Assembly: GCA_027449865.1 (NCBI GenBank)
Contig: DAIDKV010000010.1
Location: 1 to 64,000 of the forward strand
Length of the DNA stretch: 64,000 bases
Source of the DNA: Planctomycetales bacterium
Lineage (GTDB): Bacteria; Planctomycetota; Planctomycetia; Isosphaerales; Isosphaeraceae
Direction: 5' to 3'
The notes beneath the pieces were generated by a model. The model was not told the DNA's origin. It ran no database searches and was given only the letters and a program-made list of their open reading frames with translations. Below are positions 41,412 to 48,581 of this stretch, in pieces. Both the position numbers and the translations under genes were made by a program. How positions within the stretch are numbered: the first letter of the stretch is position 1; each line of letters begins with the position of its first letter.

Positions 41412-42233
41412 TCAGGGCGCCGCGTCTCCGGCCGGGGCGAGGTAGGCAAGGGCCTCGCGATAGGCCGACTCGATCGCGCGGAATTCGGCGGGATCACCGC
41501 CGGCGTCCGGGTGCGCGGTGATCGCCAGGCGTCGATAGGCAGCCTTGATCGTCTCCACCGAGCAGGGGAAACGCACGCCGAGTGTGGCGCACCAGTCGTG
41601 CTTCGCCGTCAGGGTGGCCTCGACGTCGCGGATGCCGTCGTCCTCGCTCGCGTAGAACGTCAGGTCGCGTTGCGCGTGGCGGCAGGTAAAGCGCCCCTCT
41701 GTCCGAAGCGCGACACGGTCGACGGCCAGCGTGCGCGTCTTCGGTTGGTCTTCCGGGGGCTCCTGGACTCGACGGGCCCATTCGTCCTCATCGAAGGGCT
41801 CACAGTCAACGTGAATTTTTTGGGCGGTCTGCTTGACGATCCGATGCCGGGCCACCATGACATGCCCGAGCGCATCGGGCGGCTCGCGCCCCTGGGCGGC
41901 ATACAGAAAAGCGAGCCGGACCGGCGCACCAGGCGACGGGCGAGGCCGTCCGATCCGGGCCTTGGGCCGGGTCACGCCAGCGCTCGCAGCATCTCCCTCC
42001 TTGCCTCGGTTCCTGTAGCCGGAGGCCCATTTGCCGGGGAGCTTTTTGAGTTCGGCCCCGACCCGCTCGGCGGCCTTCGCCTCGGCCCGAGCGGCGGTCG
42101 CCTCGTAGCCCGTGGCCAGGGCGGGCGCGTGGGCACGGGCGTCGGCCTCGCTCTCCCAGGCGACCCAGAACCATCGGCCGATCCCGGCCGAACAGCACGC
42201 GAACGCCGGGACCTCGCCGGACTCCTCGCTCAT
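41412..42233 (-). CDS. Protein with C-terminal J domain (DnaJ-like co-chaperone)
   Basis: A 273-residue cytosolic protein. The C-terminal ~55 residues are a J domain (CATLGVRFPCSVETIKAAYRRLAITAHPDAGGDPAEFRAI) with the HPD tripeptide needed to stimulate DnaK ATPase. The preceding ~215 residues have no recognised domain. They contain a WFWVAWESEADARAHA segment and a basic stretch (GRPRPSPGAP). Canonical DnaJ has the J domain at the N-terminus and G/F and zinc-finger regions, all absent here, so this is a specialised co-chaperone. No DnaK or GrpE gene is near. The start at 42233 is the only ATG that keeps the N-terminal segment. Confidence 0.82.
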   Translation of the reverse strand: MSEESGEVPAFACCSAGIGRWFWVAWESEADARAHAPALATGYEATAARAEAKAAERVGAELKKLPGKWASGYRNRGKEGDAASAGVTRPKARIGRPRPSPGAPVRLAFLYAAQGREPPDALGHVMVARHRIVKQTAQKIHVDCEPFDEDEWARRVQEPPEDQPKTRTLAVDRVALRTEGRFTCRHAQRDLTFYASEDDGIRDVEATLTAKHDWCATLGVRFPCSVETIKAAYRRLAITAHPDAGGDPAEFRAIESAYREALAYLAPAGDAAP

Positions 42234-42416
42234 GATCGTCGACGCACCTCAATAGATAGAGTTTCCCCACCTTCATTATCGGGGCCCTCCGCGAGTTGAC
42301 AACGCGCCCCGATCTTGCGGCGCTTCCGAATCCTCGCCGACGCGCGAGCATGGCGGGTCGTCCTCGTCCGGGGTCTAATGGGAGCAAGACGGTTCTCGAT
42401 CGAGGAGGACGCGGCC

Positions 42417-43022
42417 ATGTCGGATCGCGATCTGAAGCTCAACACGCTCCGGACGGTGAAGCAGTCGCCGGGCCTCGTCCTGGAGGAGCACGGCCATTGC
42501 GAGGTTCCGGCCGGCTGCGGCGGCGTGGTGCTCCGGTGGCGGAGGAGATCGCTCCGGCCGATCGAGGTCTGGATCCAGACGCTCGCGAGCAAGAGCGTCT
42601 ACATCGACGGCCAGGCGCTGGAGACCGGCCGGCCCCTGGTCCCGCCCGGCGAGCACGTGCTCGCGATCCGATTCCAGGAGGTCGATCCGGAGGCCCCGGT
42701 CCTGATGGCCGCCTGCGTCGACGGCGAGAAGCCTTCCAAAATGGTCCCGCCGGATGCCGGGGCCTTCCGCGTCGTCTCCCTCCCGGACGGCTCGTGGAAG
42801 TACGCGACGAGCGAGCCGGCCGATCCCTCGTGGATGTCGCCCGGCTTCGACGATTCCGGGTGGCGGCCGATGATCGCCCGCGAATTTCCCCCGCCGGACG
42901 AAAAGGACTGGTCCGCCAAAGGGCGAATCCAGCATATCCAGAAGCTCGGCGGACAGGGGCTCGGGATCGAAGGGCCCGCCGCGGTGCTCCTGGTGCGGAA
43001 AACCTTCGTCGTGGAGGCCTGA
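42417..43022 (+). CDS. Hypothetical jelly-roll-like protein in the radical SAM cassette
   Basis: A 201-residue cytosolic protein with no signal peptide. The second half has SEPADPSWMSPGFDDSGWRPM, a W-x(n)-F-D-D-S-x-W pattern typical of the galactose-binding (GH2 sugar-binding-like) jelly-roll fold. The first half is rich in beta-strand patterns (IEVWIQTLAS, KSVYIDGQAL). I do not recognise a family. The stop codon is 2 bases from the start of the radical SAM gene, so the two are translationally linked. It could be a substrate-presenting or binding partner of the modification enzymes; this is inference from position. A strong GAGGAGG precedes the ATG. Confidence 0.7.
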   Translation: MSDRDLKLNTLRTVKQSPGLVLEEHGHCEVPAGCGGVVLRWRRRSLRPIEVWIQTLASKSVYIDGQALETGRPLVPPGEHVLAIRFQEVDPEAPVLMAACVDGEKPSKMVPPDAGAFRVVSLPDGSWKYATSEPADPSWMSPGFDDSGWRPMIAREFPPPDEKDWSAKGRIQHIQKLGGQGLGIEGPAAVLLVRKTFVVEA

Positions 43023-43024
43023 CG

Positions 43025-44353
43025 ATGATCGAGGCCGCGCCCGTCCTGGTGCGTCAGCATTTCGGCTGCACGGTGTTCGACCGCGCGACCTCGCGATACT
43101 ACCCGTTCGATCGCGAGGCGACCGCGCTCCTGCTGCGTCTGGTGGATCGGCCGATCGAGGCCCTGATGGCGGAGAGCCCCGACGACGCCGAGGCACTCTG
43201 GGCGTTCTTCACCCGCTTCCATCGCCTGGGGTTCTTCACGATTGATGGGTTTTTCGGAGGCGAGATCCTCGACAACGAGGTCCCCGACGATCACCTCGCT
43301 GGCCCGCTCGCCGTCCACCTGGAAATCGTCGCTGCGTGCAACCTGACCTGCCGGCACTGCTTCGCCGGGGAATTGCCGAGGAAAGAACGCCAACTCAACC
43401 TCGACGAGCTCGATCGGCTCTTCGGCGAGATGGCCGCCATGGGAACCTTCCGCCTCGGCCTGACTGGCGGCGAGCCGACCCTGCGCCGCGACCTCTTCGA
43501 GATCGTCGACCGGGCGACCGCGCATGGGCTGCATCCCTGCCTCACGACCAACGGCCAGACGATCACCGAGGAGATGGCCCGCGAGTTCGGCCGCCGGGAG
43601 CTGGTCTGGCTCAACGTCAGCCTCGACGGGGCCACCTCGGCCACCAACGACGCCATCCGGGGCCCGGGGACGTTCGACCGCGTCCTCTCTCGGCTGGAAA
43701 TCCTGGCGCGGCACACCCGGTTCACGCTGGCCTTCACGATCCTGCGGACGAACCTCGACGAGATCCGCGCCTGTGCCGAGCTGGCCGAGCGGGTCGGGGC
43801 CTCGTCGGCGGTCTTCCGGCCGCTCTATCCGGTCGGCGTGGCCCGGCACCATCTCGAGTTGATGCCCGATTTCGCCGGCTACGCGGGCGCAATCGAGGAA
43901 CTCTCGGAGTACGGTCGCGAAGGCTCGGCCGCGGTCCGTGGCATCGACCCGTTCGGACCGATAGCCCGCGAGGCGTCGCAATCGGTGATCCACAACGACC
44001 ACGGCTGCGGCGCCGGTAATCTGGTCTGCTCGATCTCGCTCTCCGGCGACGTGAATCCGTGCAGTTTCCTCGGCCCCGAGCACGCCGCGGCGAACCTCCG
44101 CGAGGCCAGCTTCGCCGAGATCTGGCATCATTCGCAGGGATTCCGGGCCATCCGATCGCTCCCGGGCGGGACGCCGGAGACGTTCAGCGGCGGATGTCGG
44201 GCGAGGGCGCTCGTGTTCAACGGCTCGATCAACGCGCCCGATCCATGGATCATCGAGCGTTCGCGGTGGAGGGCCGACCGAGACGAGGTCGGTTGCGGCT
44301 CGGTCCTCGCTCCCATGGATATCGTCCAGATCTCGCGCGACGGGCCAAGATGA
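43025..44353 (+). CDS. Radical SAM/SPASM enzyme with PqqD-like N-terminal domain
   Basis: A 442-residue radical SAM protein. The [4Fe-4S] motif C105-x3-C109-x2-C112 is in CNLTCRHCFAG, followed by the usual GGEPTLR block. The C-terminus carries a SPASM-type cysteine set (GCGAGNLVCSISLSGDVNPCSFLG, then a late GGCRAR), which binds auxiliary Fe-S clusters. The first ~75 residues look like a PqqD/RRE domain (VLVRQHFGCTVFDRATSRYYPFDREATALLLRL), the peptide-binding module of RiPP biosynthesis. SPASM enzymes usually crosslink or epimerise residues in ribosomal peptides or maturate enzymes (anSME). No precursor peptide gene was found next to it. The SUMF1 gene follows 15 bases downstream. Confidence 0.88.
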   Translation: MIEAAPVLVRQHFGCTVFDRATSRYYPFDREATALLLRLVDRPIEALMAESPDDAEALWAFFTRFHRLGFFTIDGFFGGEILDNEVPDDHLAGPLAVHLEIVAACNLTCRHCFAGELPRKERQLNLDELDRLFGEMAAMGTFRLGLTGGEPTLRRDLFEIVDRATAHGLHPCLTTNGQTITEEMAREFGRRELVWLNVSLDGATSATNDAIRGPGTFDRVLSRLEILARHTRFTLAFTILRTNLDEIRACAELAERVGASSAVFRPLYPVGVARHHLELMPDFAGYAGAIEELSEYGREGSAAVRGIDPFGPIAREASQSVIHNDHGCGAGNLVCSISLSGDVNPCSFLGPEHAAANLREASFAEIWHHSQGFRAIRSLPGGTPETFSGGCRARALVFNGSINAPDPWIIERSRWRADRDEVGCGSVLAPMDIVQISRDGPR

Positions 44354-44368
44354 ACCGGGGAGGCAGTC

Positions 44369-45508
44369 ATGGCGATCGACCGGGAGACAATGCTGGCCTC
44401 GCACGGCCGAACCGGTAATGCCGGGGACTATCTGGCGATGGCGCGTCGCCTCGAATCGGAGGGCGACCTCCGCGCGGCGGCCTCGGCGGCCGATCGTGCG
44501 TTCGGGCTCGACCCGGGCCATCGCGAGATCGTCGCCGTCCGGCGGTCGCTGCTCGACCGGCTCGCCGTCACGGAACACGGGATCACCTTCCGTTACATCC
44601 CGGCGGGGACGTTCCTGATGGGATCGGACTCGGGCGATCCCGACGAGGCGCCGGTGCATCCGGTCCGGCTGGGCGATTACTGGCTGGCCGAGACGCCGAT
44701 GAGCTGGGCGGCGTACTGCGATTTGATGGGGTGGTCGCCCCCGCCCGAAGGCGGGATGCCCCGGGATTTCGACAGGGAGGCCAGCGGGTCGTTCCGGAAG
44801 GATCTTTTCGTGCTAACCCAGGAGAACAAGATCCGACTCCAGTACTGCGAGGACCTGACGGCGCGGGCGAAGGACTGGCACAGCCACACCCCCGAACGCG
44901 ACCCGGAATCGGGAGAGTGGCGGACGCCCGCGAATCGCCAGCACTTCCGCCCCCCGCTCCGCGACGAGCCGGATCGGCCCTGGAGCTACGATCGCAAGCC
45001 GATGGTCGCCGTCTCCTGGCAGGAAGCGGAGGAAGTGTGCTCCCAGCTCACGACCGGAACCGTCCTCTACCGGCTGCCGACCGAGGCCGAGTGGGAGAAG
45101 GCCGCGCGGGGCGGTCGGATCGGGGCCCGATATCCCTGGGGCGACGAGCCGCCCGATCCTCGTCGTTGCGATTTCGACCGGTTCGACGCGTTCGCGATCC
45201 GCCCGACGCGGCACTTCCCGCCCAACGATTACGGGCTGTACGCCATGAGCGGCGGCGTCTGGGAATGGACCTCCGACTGGTACGACTCGGCGTACTACCG
45301 CGAGAGCCCGGCCGAGAATCCGAGGGGGCCGGCCGAGGGCGAGGCGAAGGTGTTGCGCGGCGGGTCGTGGGCCGACTGCGCCGAGGCGGTGACAGTCTCG
45401 TTCCGGATGGCCCGCAAGAGCCGGAGCTGGCGGGACCGCGAATGGGGGGCGCAACTCGCCCCGAATGTGGGCTTCCGGCCCTGCCGCGTCGAGCGGGCCG
45501 GCCCTTGA
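44369..45508 (+). CDS. SUMF1/FGE-type protein with N-terminal TPR-like segment, canonical cysteine pair absent
   Basis: A 379-residue protein. The first ~70 residues (DYLAMARRLESEGDLRAAASAADRAFGLDPGH) look like one TPR-type repeat. The rest is a formylglycine-generating-enzyme (SUMF1/C-lectin-like) domain: IPAGTFLMGSDSGDPDEAPVH, LPTEAEWEKAARGG, YPWGDE, GGVWEWTSDWY and VLRGGSW. In true oxygen-dependent FGEs, GGS is followed by two close cysteines. Here the corresponding stretch reads GGSWADCAEAV, with only C337, and no second cysteine five residues on. It therefore probably does not make formylglycine, and may instead act like EgtB-type or accessory SUMF1 proteins. The GGGGAGG ribosome site is 6 bases before the ATG, consistent with its place as third gene of the cassette. 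Confidence 0.85.
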   Translation: MAIDRETMLASHGRTGNAGDYLAMARRLESEGDLRAAASAADRAFGLDPGHREIVAVRRSLLDRLAVTEHGITFRYIPAGTFLMGSDSGDPDEAPVHPVRLGDYWLAETPMSWAAYCDLMGWSPPPEGGMPRDFDREASGSFRKDLFVLTQENKIRLQYCEDLTARAKDWHSHTPERDPESGEWRTPANRQHFRPPLRDEPDRPWSYDRKPMVAVSWQEAEEVCSQLTTGTVLYRLPTEAEWEKAARGGRIGARYPWGDEPPDPRRCDFDRFDAFAIRPTRHFPPNDYGLYAMSGGVWEWTSDWYDSAYYRESPAENPRGPAEGEAKVLRGGSWADCAEAVTVSFRMARKSRSWRDREWGAQLAPNVGFRPCRVERAGP

Positions 45509-45638
45509 GCCGCGCCCATCGTTTCCGAGAGCAACGGCGATGAGGACTTGCGTTGCGATCATCGCCGATCATAATCGGTGTGAATGAGCCCTGGTCGCCA
45601 GAGACGACCCCATCCTTCCAGCAACGGAGGTGAGTGCG

Positions 45639-48581
45639 ATGCGATCCCGCCTGGCAGCGATCGTGATGGCCGCCGCGATCAGCGTGACCTTCGCCGCGGT
45701 GAGCGTCGTCTCCGGGACCCGCCCCGAGAGCGCGGGCATGCAGGAGACCGGAGGGCCCGGCGCTCAGGTCGCGATGCCGACGGGCACGGTCGGGCTCCAG
45801 ATTCTTCTCGGGCTCCGCGACGACGAGCCAACGCGATGGGAAGGGGACGTGAGCCTCTCCGCGGGCGAGCTTGTCGGCCTCGTCGTGACGCGACCCGTCG
45901 CTCGAGGCGAGGCCCAAGGGTCGCATTTCCGCGTCACCACCAAGAAGGCGACGCCGGCCAAGAAGCAGCAGGCCAAGAAACAGGCGAAGAAACAGGCCAA
46001 AAAGCAGGCGAAAAAGGCGGGACAGCCTGGCCCGATGGTCCCGGTCACGATGCTGGCCAACCTGATCGCCCCGGCCGACGCAACCGTGACCATCAAGACC
46101 GACCGCGGCGAATTCTCGGCGAGCCTTTCCGACCTTCGACACGGTCAGCGACGGACCTTCCTCGAAGGGCAGGCGGCCATCGAGCGGATCGATCCGTCCG
46201 TCCAGCTCACCGGCGGAGACGACGACGAGGATTTTCCAGCCGCCGCGAAGGCACCCAACGGCTCGATCTGGCTCGCTTACGCAAGCTACACCTCCGAGCG
46301 ACCCGTCCTCAAGGGAGCCGTCCAGCCCGAGGATTACGATTCGATGCTGGTCCCGACAAGAAACGGCGACCGCATTTTCCTCCGGCGATACGACGGCAAG
46401 ACGTGGGACGCGCCGATCGCCGTGACCGGCGGCGGGCTCGACGTCTGGCGCCCGGTCGTCTCGGTCGACGGTAAGGGGGATGTGGTCGTGATCTGGGCGC
46501 AGCAGGTCGACCATAACTGGGATCTCTACCGCCGCACGTACACCCCCGGAAAGGGGGACGAGGCGGGCCAGTGGAGCGACGTCGTCCGCCTCACCGAAGA
46601 CCCCGGGACCGACTCCGAGGCCGTCGCCACCACCGACGCGAAGGGAACCGTCTGGGTCGCCTGGCAGGCCTGGCGCGGCGAGAGCTACGACATCCTCGCC
46701 ATGCCGATCGCCAACGGCGCCCGCCCGCGAGCGATCTCCTCGGGACCGGCCAACGACTGGAGCCCGACGATCGCCGCCGATGGAAAGGGGAACGTCTTCG
46801 TCGCCTGGGATACCTACGAGCGGGGGAACTACGACGTCCGCCTCCGCTCGACGGCCGACGACGCCAGAACCATCGAGGTCGCCTCGACCCCGCGATTCCA
46901 GGCCCGGCCGTCGATCGCCTGCGACAGTTCCGGCCGGGTCTGGATCGCCTACGAGGAGGGCGATCCGAACTGGGGCAAGGACTACTCGAGCGAGACGCCC
47001 GCGAAGGTTCCCGTCACCCAGCGCGGGAATCCGCTCTATCTCTTCCGGACGATCCGGGTGAAGTGCCTCGACACCGATGGAACCCTGAAGCAGCCCCCTG
47101 GCGCGGTCGCCGATGCTCTGCCTGCCGGCAGTTCTCGCGGTCTAAGCTGCCCCAGGCTGGCCGTCGACGACTCGATCGGCCTCTGGCTCCTGTTCCGACG
47201 GAACCCGAATCCCAACGGAGCGGGCGAGGTCTGGGACAGCTTCGCCACGCAACACGACGGCAAGGGCTGGACGACGGCCCGGCACCTGCTCCACTCCTCG
47301 AACCTGATCGACAACCGCCCCGCGCTCGTGCCGATCGGCGGCGGCCTGATGGCGATCCACAGCACCGACGATCGCTTCTCCACGGCCTCGCGCAGCCAGG
47401 ACGACCTCCACTCCACCTGGGTCCAGCCCGATTCGAAGAACAACCCCCTGCCGACCCTGGAGGCGATCGCCGAGGCCGCCGAGGTTCGCGAGGAACCCGT
47501 TCACCCCAACGAGACGGCCGACAAGGCCCGACTCCGCGCCCATCGGATCGAGGTCGGCGGCCAGACCCTCCGACTCGCTCGCGGCGAGTTCCACCGACAC
47601 ACCGAATTCTCCTCACACCGCGACCAGGACGGACTCCTCGAAGACACCTGGCGATACGCCCTCGACGCCGCCGACCTCGACTGGATGGGGAACGGCGACC
47701 ACATGAACGGCTTTAATCACGAATACATGTGGTGGCTGATCCAGAAAGGGATGGACCTGCACGACCACGGGCGCCGGTTCGTGGCGGCCTACACCTACGA
47801 GCGGAGCGCCGTCTATCCGAACGGCCACCGCAACGTGATGATGCCCCGCCGCGGCATCCGTCCGCTCCCCTTCGGTGATCTCCAGGGCACGGAAGGCGAG
47901 GGAACGCCCGACACCAAGAATCTCTACGTCTGCCTGAAGCACTTCGGCGGCTTCTGCTCGTCGCACACGAGCGCCACCAACATGGGGACCGACTGGCGCG
48001 ACAACGACGGCGAGGTCGAACCGGTGGTGGAGATTTACCAGGGGCACCGCCACAATTACGAATTCTTCGGCGCCCCGCGATCGCCGACCGAGGCCACCCA
48101 GATCGGCGGCTACCAACCGAAGGGCTTCATCTCCAACGCGCTGGCGAAGGGCTATCGGCTCGGGTTCCAGTCGTCGAGCGATCACGTCAGCACCCACTGG
48201 AGCTATGGAATCGTCCTGACCGAGGACAACTCGCACCAGGCGATCATCGACGCCTTCAAGAAGCGGCACAGCTACGCCGCGACCGACAACATCCTGCTCG
48301 ACGTCCGCTCGGGCGATCATCTGATGGGCGACGTCTTCGAGACGGATCGCGCCCCAACCCTCGCGATCAAGGCCGTCGGCACGGCGCCGATCAAGGCGGT
48401 CCACGTCATCCGCGACGGCAAGTACGCGATGACGATCGAGCCCGGCAAGGAATCGGCCGAGCTGACCTACACCGACGACAACGCAAAGTCGGGCGAGACG
48501 CACTACTATTACGTCCGCGTCGAGCAAACCGACGCCAACCTCGCCTGGGCCTCGCCGATGTGGATCACGTTCAAGAAGTAG
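45639..48581 (+). CDS. Exported DUF3604-like PHP-type metallohydrolase with propeller and lysine-rich repeat
   Basis: A 980-residue exported protein. A signal peptide (MRSRLAAIVMAAAISVTFAAVSVVSGT) is followed by a Lys/Ala/Gln repeat at about 107-127 (see repeat entry), a propeller-like region with blades such as AKAPNGSIWLAYA and DAKGTVWVAWQAW, and a C-terminal DUF3604/PHP-like domain starting GEFHRHTEFSSHRDQDG. Metal-binding histidines are likely in FHRHTEF, GNGDHMN, SSHTSATNMG, GHRHNYEFFG and SSDHVS. DUF3604 proteins are predicted metal-dependent hydrolases, perhaps on phosphoesters or sugar derivatives; the substrate is unknown. The start at 45639 has GGAGG 8 bases upstream; GTG 45630 is an alternative. 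A related PHP-type protein is encoded at 52528. Confidence 0.85.
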   Translation: MRSRLAAIVMAAAISVTFAAVSVVSGTRPESAGMQETGGPGAQVAMPTGTVGLQILLGLRDDEPTRWEGDVSLSAGELVGLVVTRPVARGEAQGSHFRVTTKKATPAKKQQAKKQAKKQAKKQAKKAGQPGPMVPVTMLANLIAPADATVTIKTDRGEFSASLSDLRHGQRRTFLEGQAAIERIDPSVQLTGGDDDEDFPAAAKAPNGSIWLAYASYTSERPVLKGAVQPEDYDSMLVPTRNGDRIFLRRYDGKTWDAPIAVTGGGLDVWRPVVSVDGKGDVVVIWAQQVDHNWDLYRRTYTPGKGDEAGQWSDVVRLTEDPGTDSEAVATTDAKGTVWVAWQAWRGESYDILAMPIANGARPRAISSGPANDWSPTIAADGKGNVFVAWDTYERGNYDVRLRSTADDARTIEVASTPRFQARPSIACDSSGRVWIAYEEGDPNWGKDYSSETPAKVPVTQRGNPLYLFRTIRVKCLDTDGTLKQPPGAVADALPAGSSRGLSCPRLAVDDSIGLWLLFRRNPNPNGAGEVWDSFATQHDGKGWTTARHLLHSSNLIDNRPALVPIGGGLMAIHSTDDRFSTASRSQDDLHSTWVQPDSKNNPLPTLEAIAEAAEVREEPVHPNETADKARLRAHRIEVGGQTLRLARGEFHRHTEFSSHRDQDGLLEDTWRYALDAADLDWMGNGDHMNGFNHEYMWWLIQKGMDLHDHGRRFVAAYTYERSAVYPNGHRNVMMPRRGIRPLPFGDLQGTEGEGTPDTKNLYVCLKHFGGFCSSHTSATNMGTDWRDNDGEVEPVVEIYQGHRHNYEFFGAPRSPTEATQIGGYQPKGFISNALAKGYRLGFQSSSDHVSTHWSYGIVLTEDNSHQAIIDAFKKRHSYAATDNILLDVRSGDHLMGDVFETDRAPTLAIKAVGTAPIKAVHVIRDGKYAMTIEPGKESAELTYTDDNAKSGETHYYYVRVEQTDANLAWASPMWITFKK
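45957..46019 (+). repeat. In-frame 12-base repeat coding for K-K-Q-A units
   Basis: Four to five tandem 12-base units (GCC/GCG-AAG-AA(A/G)-CAG) encode a basic AKKQ run inside the DUF3604 protein. Such histone-H1-like repeats are prone to length change and could bind anionic polymers. Confidence 0.85.

Follow-up and report, generated by a model that had tools for sequence, protein, structure and literature searches.

Radical SAM maturases such as SkfB, CteB and SuiB are built from an N-terminal RRE-like domain, a radical SAM core and a C-terminal SPASM or Twitch domain, and act on peptides that are cut and exported. The SPASM domain is defined by a seven-cysteine signature (CX9-15GX4C-CX2CX5CX3C-C) and two auxiliary clusters; in SkfB its place is taken by a Twitch domain, which carries just one auxiliary cluster (PMC6231123). 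A related arrangement is found in MftB-MftC and PqqD-PqqE, where the RRE protein and the radical SAM enzyme are separate. Maturation of an operon-encoded protein subunit is exemplified by QhpC-QhpD-QhpG, in which a dedicated radical SAM enzyme works alongside a second oxidizing enzyme, a flavoprotein, and in which Cys37 and Trp43 of QhpC form CTQ (PMC7876137). The formylglycine-generating enzyme (FGE), which belongs to the SUMF1 fold family, has two active-site cysteines, at positions 336/341 in the human and 272/277 in the S. coelicolor enzyme (PMC4505483).

The window analysed here, a 64,000-nucleotide stretch from a Planctomycetales bacterium, carries on its forward strand three consecutive genes encoding a 201-aa protein (JR, 42417-43022), a 442-aa radical SAM enzyme (43025-44353) and a 379-aa SUMF1-like protein with a weak TPR-like N-terminus (44369-45508); the coordinates given in the initial annotation, and the gaps of 2 and 15 bases, were confirmed. 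By reading, a Shine-Dalgarno-like purine stretch precedes each of the three ORFs, and that upstream of the JR gene, GAGGAGGA (42402-42409, forward strand), favours the ATG at 42417 over the upstream open frame. All three genes are under purifying selection, with dN/dS values of 0.22-0.39 against the congeners G003 and G001, of which the former has its cassette divided between two contigs and the latter contributes only the end of the radical SAM gene and the SUMF1 gene. The gene directly downstream (45630-48581), coding for a 983-aa protein with a C-terminal CehA/McbA metallohydrolase match under the cut-off, is placed outside the cassette because it is kept in G003 and not in G001. On the other side, a divergent gene on the minus strand (41412-42233) shows a C-terminal DnaJ-like match (5e-7) and has an orthologue at the same place in G003. 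Between 49073 and 50653, a 130-aa Y1-type transposase-like ORF is followed after 3 bases by a 394-aa TnpB-like ORF, which, read by eye, looks like an IS200/IS605-type element.

The in-depth genome searches covered Planctomycetota. Among 59 relatives, high-identity copies of the cassette occurred in the window's genus only. Profile searching within the window's class (398 genomes) brought in G667, G493 and G648, with radical SAM matches at E <= 1e-60 in 5/398 genomes, and a radical SAM search of 392 genomes of the phylum led to G175, a member of a different class (51% identity; JR homologue 39%), and to five more genomes at 36-39% identity. The JR profile recovered the window and G175 only in this phylum sample, the other three JR loci having come from the class sample. 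The JR and radical SAM genes are followed by a SUMF1 gene in the window's genus, G667, G493 and G648; none is adjacent in G175, the assembly of which is 59% complete, and several other searched genomes are likewise incomplete. When near-copies are excluded, ten cassette loci remain, five of the JR type (the window, G667, G493, G648 and G175) and five in which a small ORF stands in the place of JR (G262, G171, G186, G227 and G200). A SUMF1 gene adjoins the radical SAM gene in nine of these ten, and a similar SUMF1 gene, JR or small ORF was found at 0/30 background radical SAM loci, most with flanks as short as ~1.4 kb, which weakens this control. The JR-radical SAM-SUMF1 cassette is thus real, rare and conserved, and its co-occurrence elsewhere, on which the initial annotation had made its proposal depend, is established; in the open-access literature, to which our search was confined, no description of the combination came up. 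In G667 (L105, 9405-11682), two divergent sulfatase-like genes adjoin the JR gene of the cassette.

In the five small-ORF-type planctomycetes, belonging to families f26 and f87 and to one other class, an ORF of 68-70 residues occupies the slot before a homologous radical SAM-SUMF1 pair, with 4-base overlaps at nearly all junctions of either kind and, in one case, an overlap of 40 between the small ORF and the radical SAM gene. The encoded proteins terminate in SAGCFGExxQWxLK or a near variant. A profile of these peptides gave five true matches in the 392 phylum genomes, all beside a radical SAM gene, and further matches lay near threshold and were judged to be noise. In the searches made, JR and the small ORF were mutually exclusive partners of the slot. 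The absence of a precursor gene reported in the initial annotation holds for the window itself, where a six-frame comparison with six distant loci recovered only the three genes and their shadow frames, leaving no further conserved small ORF beside the cassette, and a hidden precursor there was rejected; it does not hold for the relatives, whose 68-70-residue ORF has, from its sequence, the appearance of the precursor-like gene that had been missed.

JR shares a motif with these small proteins, C-terminal in the latter and lying near its own N-terminus in the form CEVPAGC[GA]G[VA][VI]LRW. The surrounding segment LVLEEHGHCEVPAGCGGVVLRWR (JR residues 20-42, 42474-42542, forward strand), which includes C28, C34 and W41, is identical to that of G175 at 22/23 positions as against 36% by column over the whole alignment (0/100,000 shuffles). 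In an alignment of six sequences (orthologues being present in G003, G667, G493, G648 and G175), 20 invariant columns fall within residues 1-42 and 9 within the other 159 (Fisher p 9e-10). A conserved N-terminal tail attached to a diverging domain is how a substrate or a docking segment would look, and the segment might be an RRE-binding site or a metal site instead of a modified site. Across 11/11 JR and small proteins, the sole invariant residues are those of C-x-G-x4-W (Cys, Gly at +2, Trp at +7). The pattern AGC.G....W[RK] has a frequency of 1.5e-5 in JR shuffles, and among 102,750 residues C.G....W had 3 distinct occurrences beyond the cassettes, none of them preceded by AG. As the comparison of the small ORF and JR profiles was weak (hhalign P 0.003, probability 12%), the link between the two is carried by motif, spacing and operon slot in combination. 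No Pfam family matched JR and no signal peptide was apparent by eye. Its description as a jelly-roll protein draws its support solely from a short local resemblance of residues ~54-155 to a rhamnosidase-type beta-sandwich (PDB 3w5m; E 8e-4 with the single sequence, 4e-3 with the profile) and to large planctomycete proteins in their C-terminal portions; the AlphaFold model, at pLDDT 30, was unusable.

The second gene product belongs to the radical SAM superfamily, with the CX3CX2C cysteines C105, C109 and C112 in CNLTCRHC (residues 105-112, 43337-43360, forward strand), a Radical_SAM match (PF04055, 2.6e-25) and a SPASM match (2.1e-6). Its first 90 residues or so (43025-43294, forward strand, boundary approximate) may form an RRE-like domain of the PqqD/MftB type. 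This part of the earlier description gained support from a weak hhalign match to MftB (E 1e-4, probability 56%), from a predicted model with three strands followed by three helices (pLDDT 64, moderate confidence) and from Foldseek, which listed SkfB, PqqE and SuiB first and anSME later, the alignments with the RRE-bearing SkfB and SuiB extending over most of the chain; it found none in Pfam, where the region had no match. The NCBIfam matches were led by MftC, AhbD, NirJ2, WgkB and PqqE, all far under their cut-offs. Identity with mycofactocin MftC was rejected, the match (2e-47) reaching 161.9 bits against a cut-off of 265 and mftA, mftB, mftD, mftE and mftF being absent from the neighbourhood; compared with MftB-MftC, the RRE-like region is moreover fused to an enzyme of a separate clade. 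A search of solved structures placed PqqE and SkfB above anSME (PqqE 2e-36, anSME 1.7e-14). Assignment to anSME was likewise rejected, as the Aux II ligands are absent, anSME ranks well under PqqE and the JR motif lacks C/S-x-P/A-x-R; judged by sequence and structure searches, the enzyme is nearer to peptide and cofactor maturases, and the grouping with anSME that could have undone the earlier proposal did not materialise. A plasmid of Rhizobium sp. T1473 (L063, 4992-7486) harbours two tandem radical SAM genes with a 1-base overlap, the first product of which aligns with nearly the whole window enzyme, RRE-like region included (27%). Neither these genes nor those for the RRE-bearing radical SAM enzymes of G154 and G139 are adjoined by JR, a small ORF or SUMF1.

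The SPASM label requires narrowing. Alignments showed that C328, C335, C346 and C391 are kept (44006-44197, forward strand), but the CX2CX5C element and the terminal cysteine of the seven-cysteine signature are missing in the window, G003, G001, G667, G493 and G648. C328, C346 and C391 are common to these enzymes, and so is C335 except in G648 (Ala), the congener fragments missing some of the positions; G175 and the five small-type relatives retain the full SPASM set. With the cluster ligands assigned as in PMC5715301 and PMC6231123, this pattern is read as loss of Aux II with retention of Aux I, and the window enzyme, having Aux I-type ligands only, classes by its sequence as a Twitch type. 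In the radical SAM tree, the JR-type (100/100) and small-type (100/99) enzymes form clades within one supported group that also contains three other RRE-bearing enzymes, and the SPASM-to-Twitch loss fits a single event. A single clade of the two types was neither established nor rejected (AU p 0.27); as the tree joins them without firmness, the sharing of the motif could be convergent.

The third protein belongs to the SUMF1 fold family, with a Pfam FGE-sulfatase match of 2.1e-46 and an E-value of 2.8e-28 against solved FGE chains. Alignment with the latter places the first FGE active-site cysteine in RGGSWADC (45356-45379, forward strand), kept with a shift of one residue, and a threonine at the position of the second, as also in G003, G001, G667, G648 and G493; in the small-type proteins both cysteines are gone. 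The complete cysteine pair that marks FGE is therefore lacking throughout and, since the second cysteine is Thr in one type and neither is kept in the other, the FGE reaction is unlikely. The SUMF1-like protein thus resembles FGE in fold family and in most of the core but differs from it in this threonine, in its TPR-like N-terminal region and in its operon association with a radical SAM gene. The N-termini of the two SUMF1 types showed no significant homology (E 0.11).

We consider it probable, at roughly 60%, that JR is a dedicated substrate whose N-terminal segment is docked by the RRE and whose Cys/Trp motif is modified by the radical SAM enzyme, the SUMF1-like protein being an accessory. 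The RRE-like domain would dock onto the N-terminal segment of JR, and the Twitch-type enzyme would then modify it by radical chemistry; the reaction would most likely cross-link or oxidise C34, and W41 and perhaps C28 are further candidate participants. The SUMF1-like protein may help in a non-FGE role, by binding, by presenting or by a second oxidation, and the end product would be the matured JR protein, no peptide being released; in the related planctomycetes, the 68-70-residue peptide with C-x-G-x4-W would take the place of JR. We infer that a modification takes place at all, and likewise that JR is its substrate, the motif its site and the SUMF1-like protein a contributor. The initial annotation had guessed that JR might itself be the substrate, and this is favoured because the slot in the relatives holds a small ORF with C-x-G-x4-W; its interpretation is supported in outline. 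By analogy, the nearest functional parallel may be the Qhp system, where Cys37 and Trp43 of QhpC can be set beside C34-x6-W41 of JR, although the partner there is a flavoprotein instead of a SUMF1-like protein and QhpC contains several Cys-Asp/Glu thioethers, whereas the conserved segment of JR has two cysteines only. Compared with SkfB, CteB and SuiB, which the window enzyme appears to resemble in architecture and, in the case of SkfB, in its Twitch domain, the apparent substrate is much longer than a peptide, at 200 aa, and has a folded domain at its C-terminal end, and the SUMF1-like partner is additional. A more elaborate version, in which a C34-W41 cross-link or Trp-based cofactor is installed in a sugar-binding-like JR by an RRE-fused Twitch enzyme and a SUMF1-fold second oxidase, with peptide and folded-protein modules exchanged in the slot, is decidedly speculative and, as a whole, improbable.

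Alternatively, JR could be a partner or scaffold of the radical SAM enzyme, its segment docking the RRE while the true substrate is encoded elsewhere in the genome. In RiPP systems the RRE is often bound by conserved leader-like segments, and in JR a whole folded domain follows such a segment with no evident released core peptide; this arrangement nevertheless appears unlikely given that the JR slot in relatives holds a precursor-looking ORF with the same motif, that no further conserved small ORF adjoins the cassette and that a second JR or small-peptide copy was not found in G000. A formylglycine system, in which an anSME-like radical SAM enzyme (anaerobic) and an FGE-like SUMF1 protein (aerobic) both act on the conserved JR cysteine, would account for the pairing of the two folds known to make formylglycine, for the invariant cysteine and for the anSME structures among the Foldseek matches. 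It is disfavoured, and in our estimation very improbable, in view of the loss of FGE cysteines, of a JR motif reading CGGVV where the consensus is CxPxR (PMC4505483), of a radical SAM enzyme far closer to PqqE and of its Aux I-type ligands only.

Likewise very improbable is a small-molecule or heme-type product of the AhbD/NirJ kind with incidental neighbours: AhbD and NirJ2 rank among the top NCBIfam matches but, like all the others, score under the curated cut-offs. Peptide binding is what the substrate-slot genes and the fused RRE-like domain suit, and the three genes remain linked across families. That an abundant SUMF1 gene came to lie beside unrelated neighbours by chance is conceivable from its numbers, 8-20 matches per genome at E <= 1e-10 in the five genomes tested, but this is already contradicted by the co-occurrence, SUMF1 being adjacent at nine cassette loci and at no background locus, with overlapping genes.

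For an undescribed radical SAM SPASM/Twitch subfamily, the cassette supplies candidates for both the substrate and the modified site, and few such systems have been characterised so far in the phylum concerned, Planctomycetota. The Twitch clade and its nearest relative in G175, the enzyme of which apparently has a full SPASM domain, constitute a natural experiment on the purpose of Aux II, and a non-FGE role is indicated for a subfamily of SUMF1 proteins. One operon slot that takes a small peptide in some genomes and a 200-aa protein in others, both carrying a single shared motif, would link RiPP-style maturation with that of enzyme subunits, a link that is testable with three genes.
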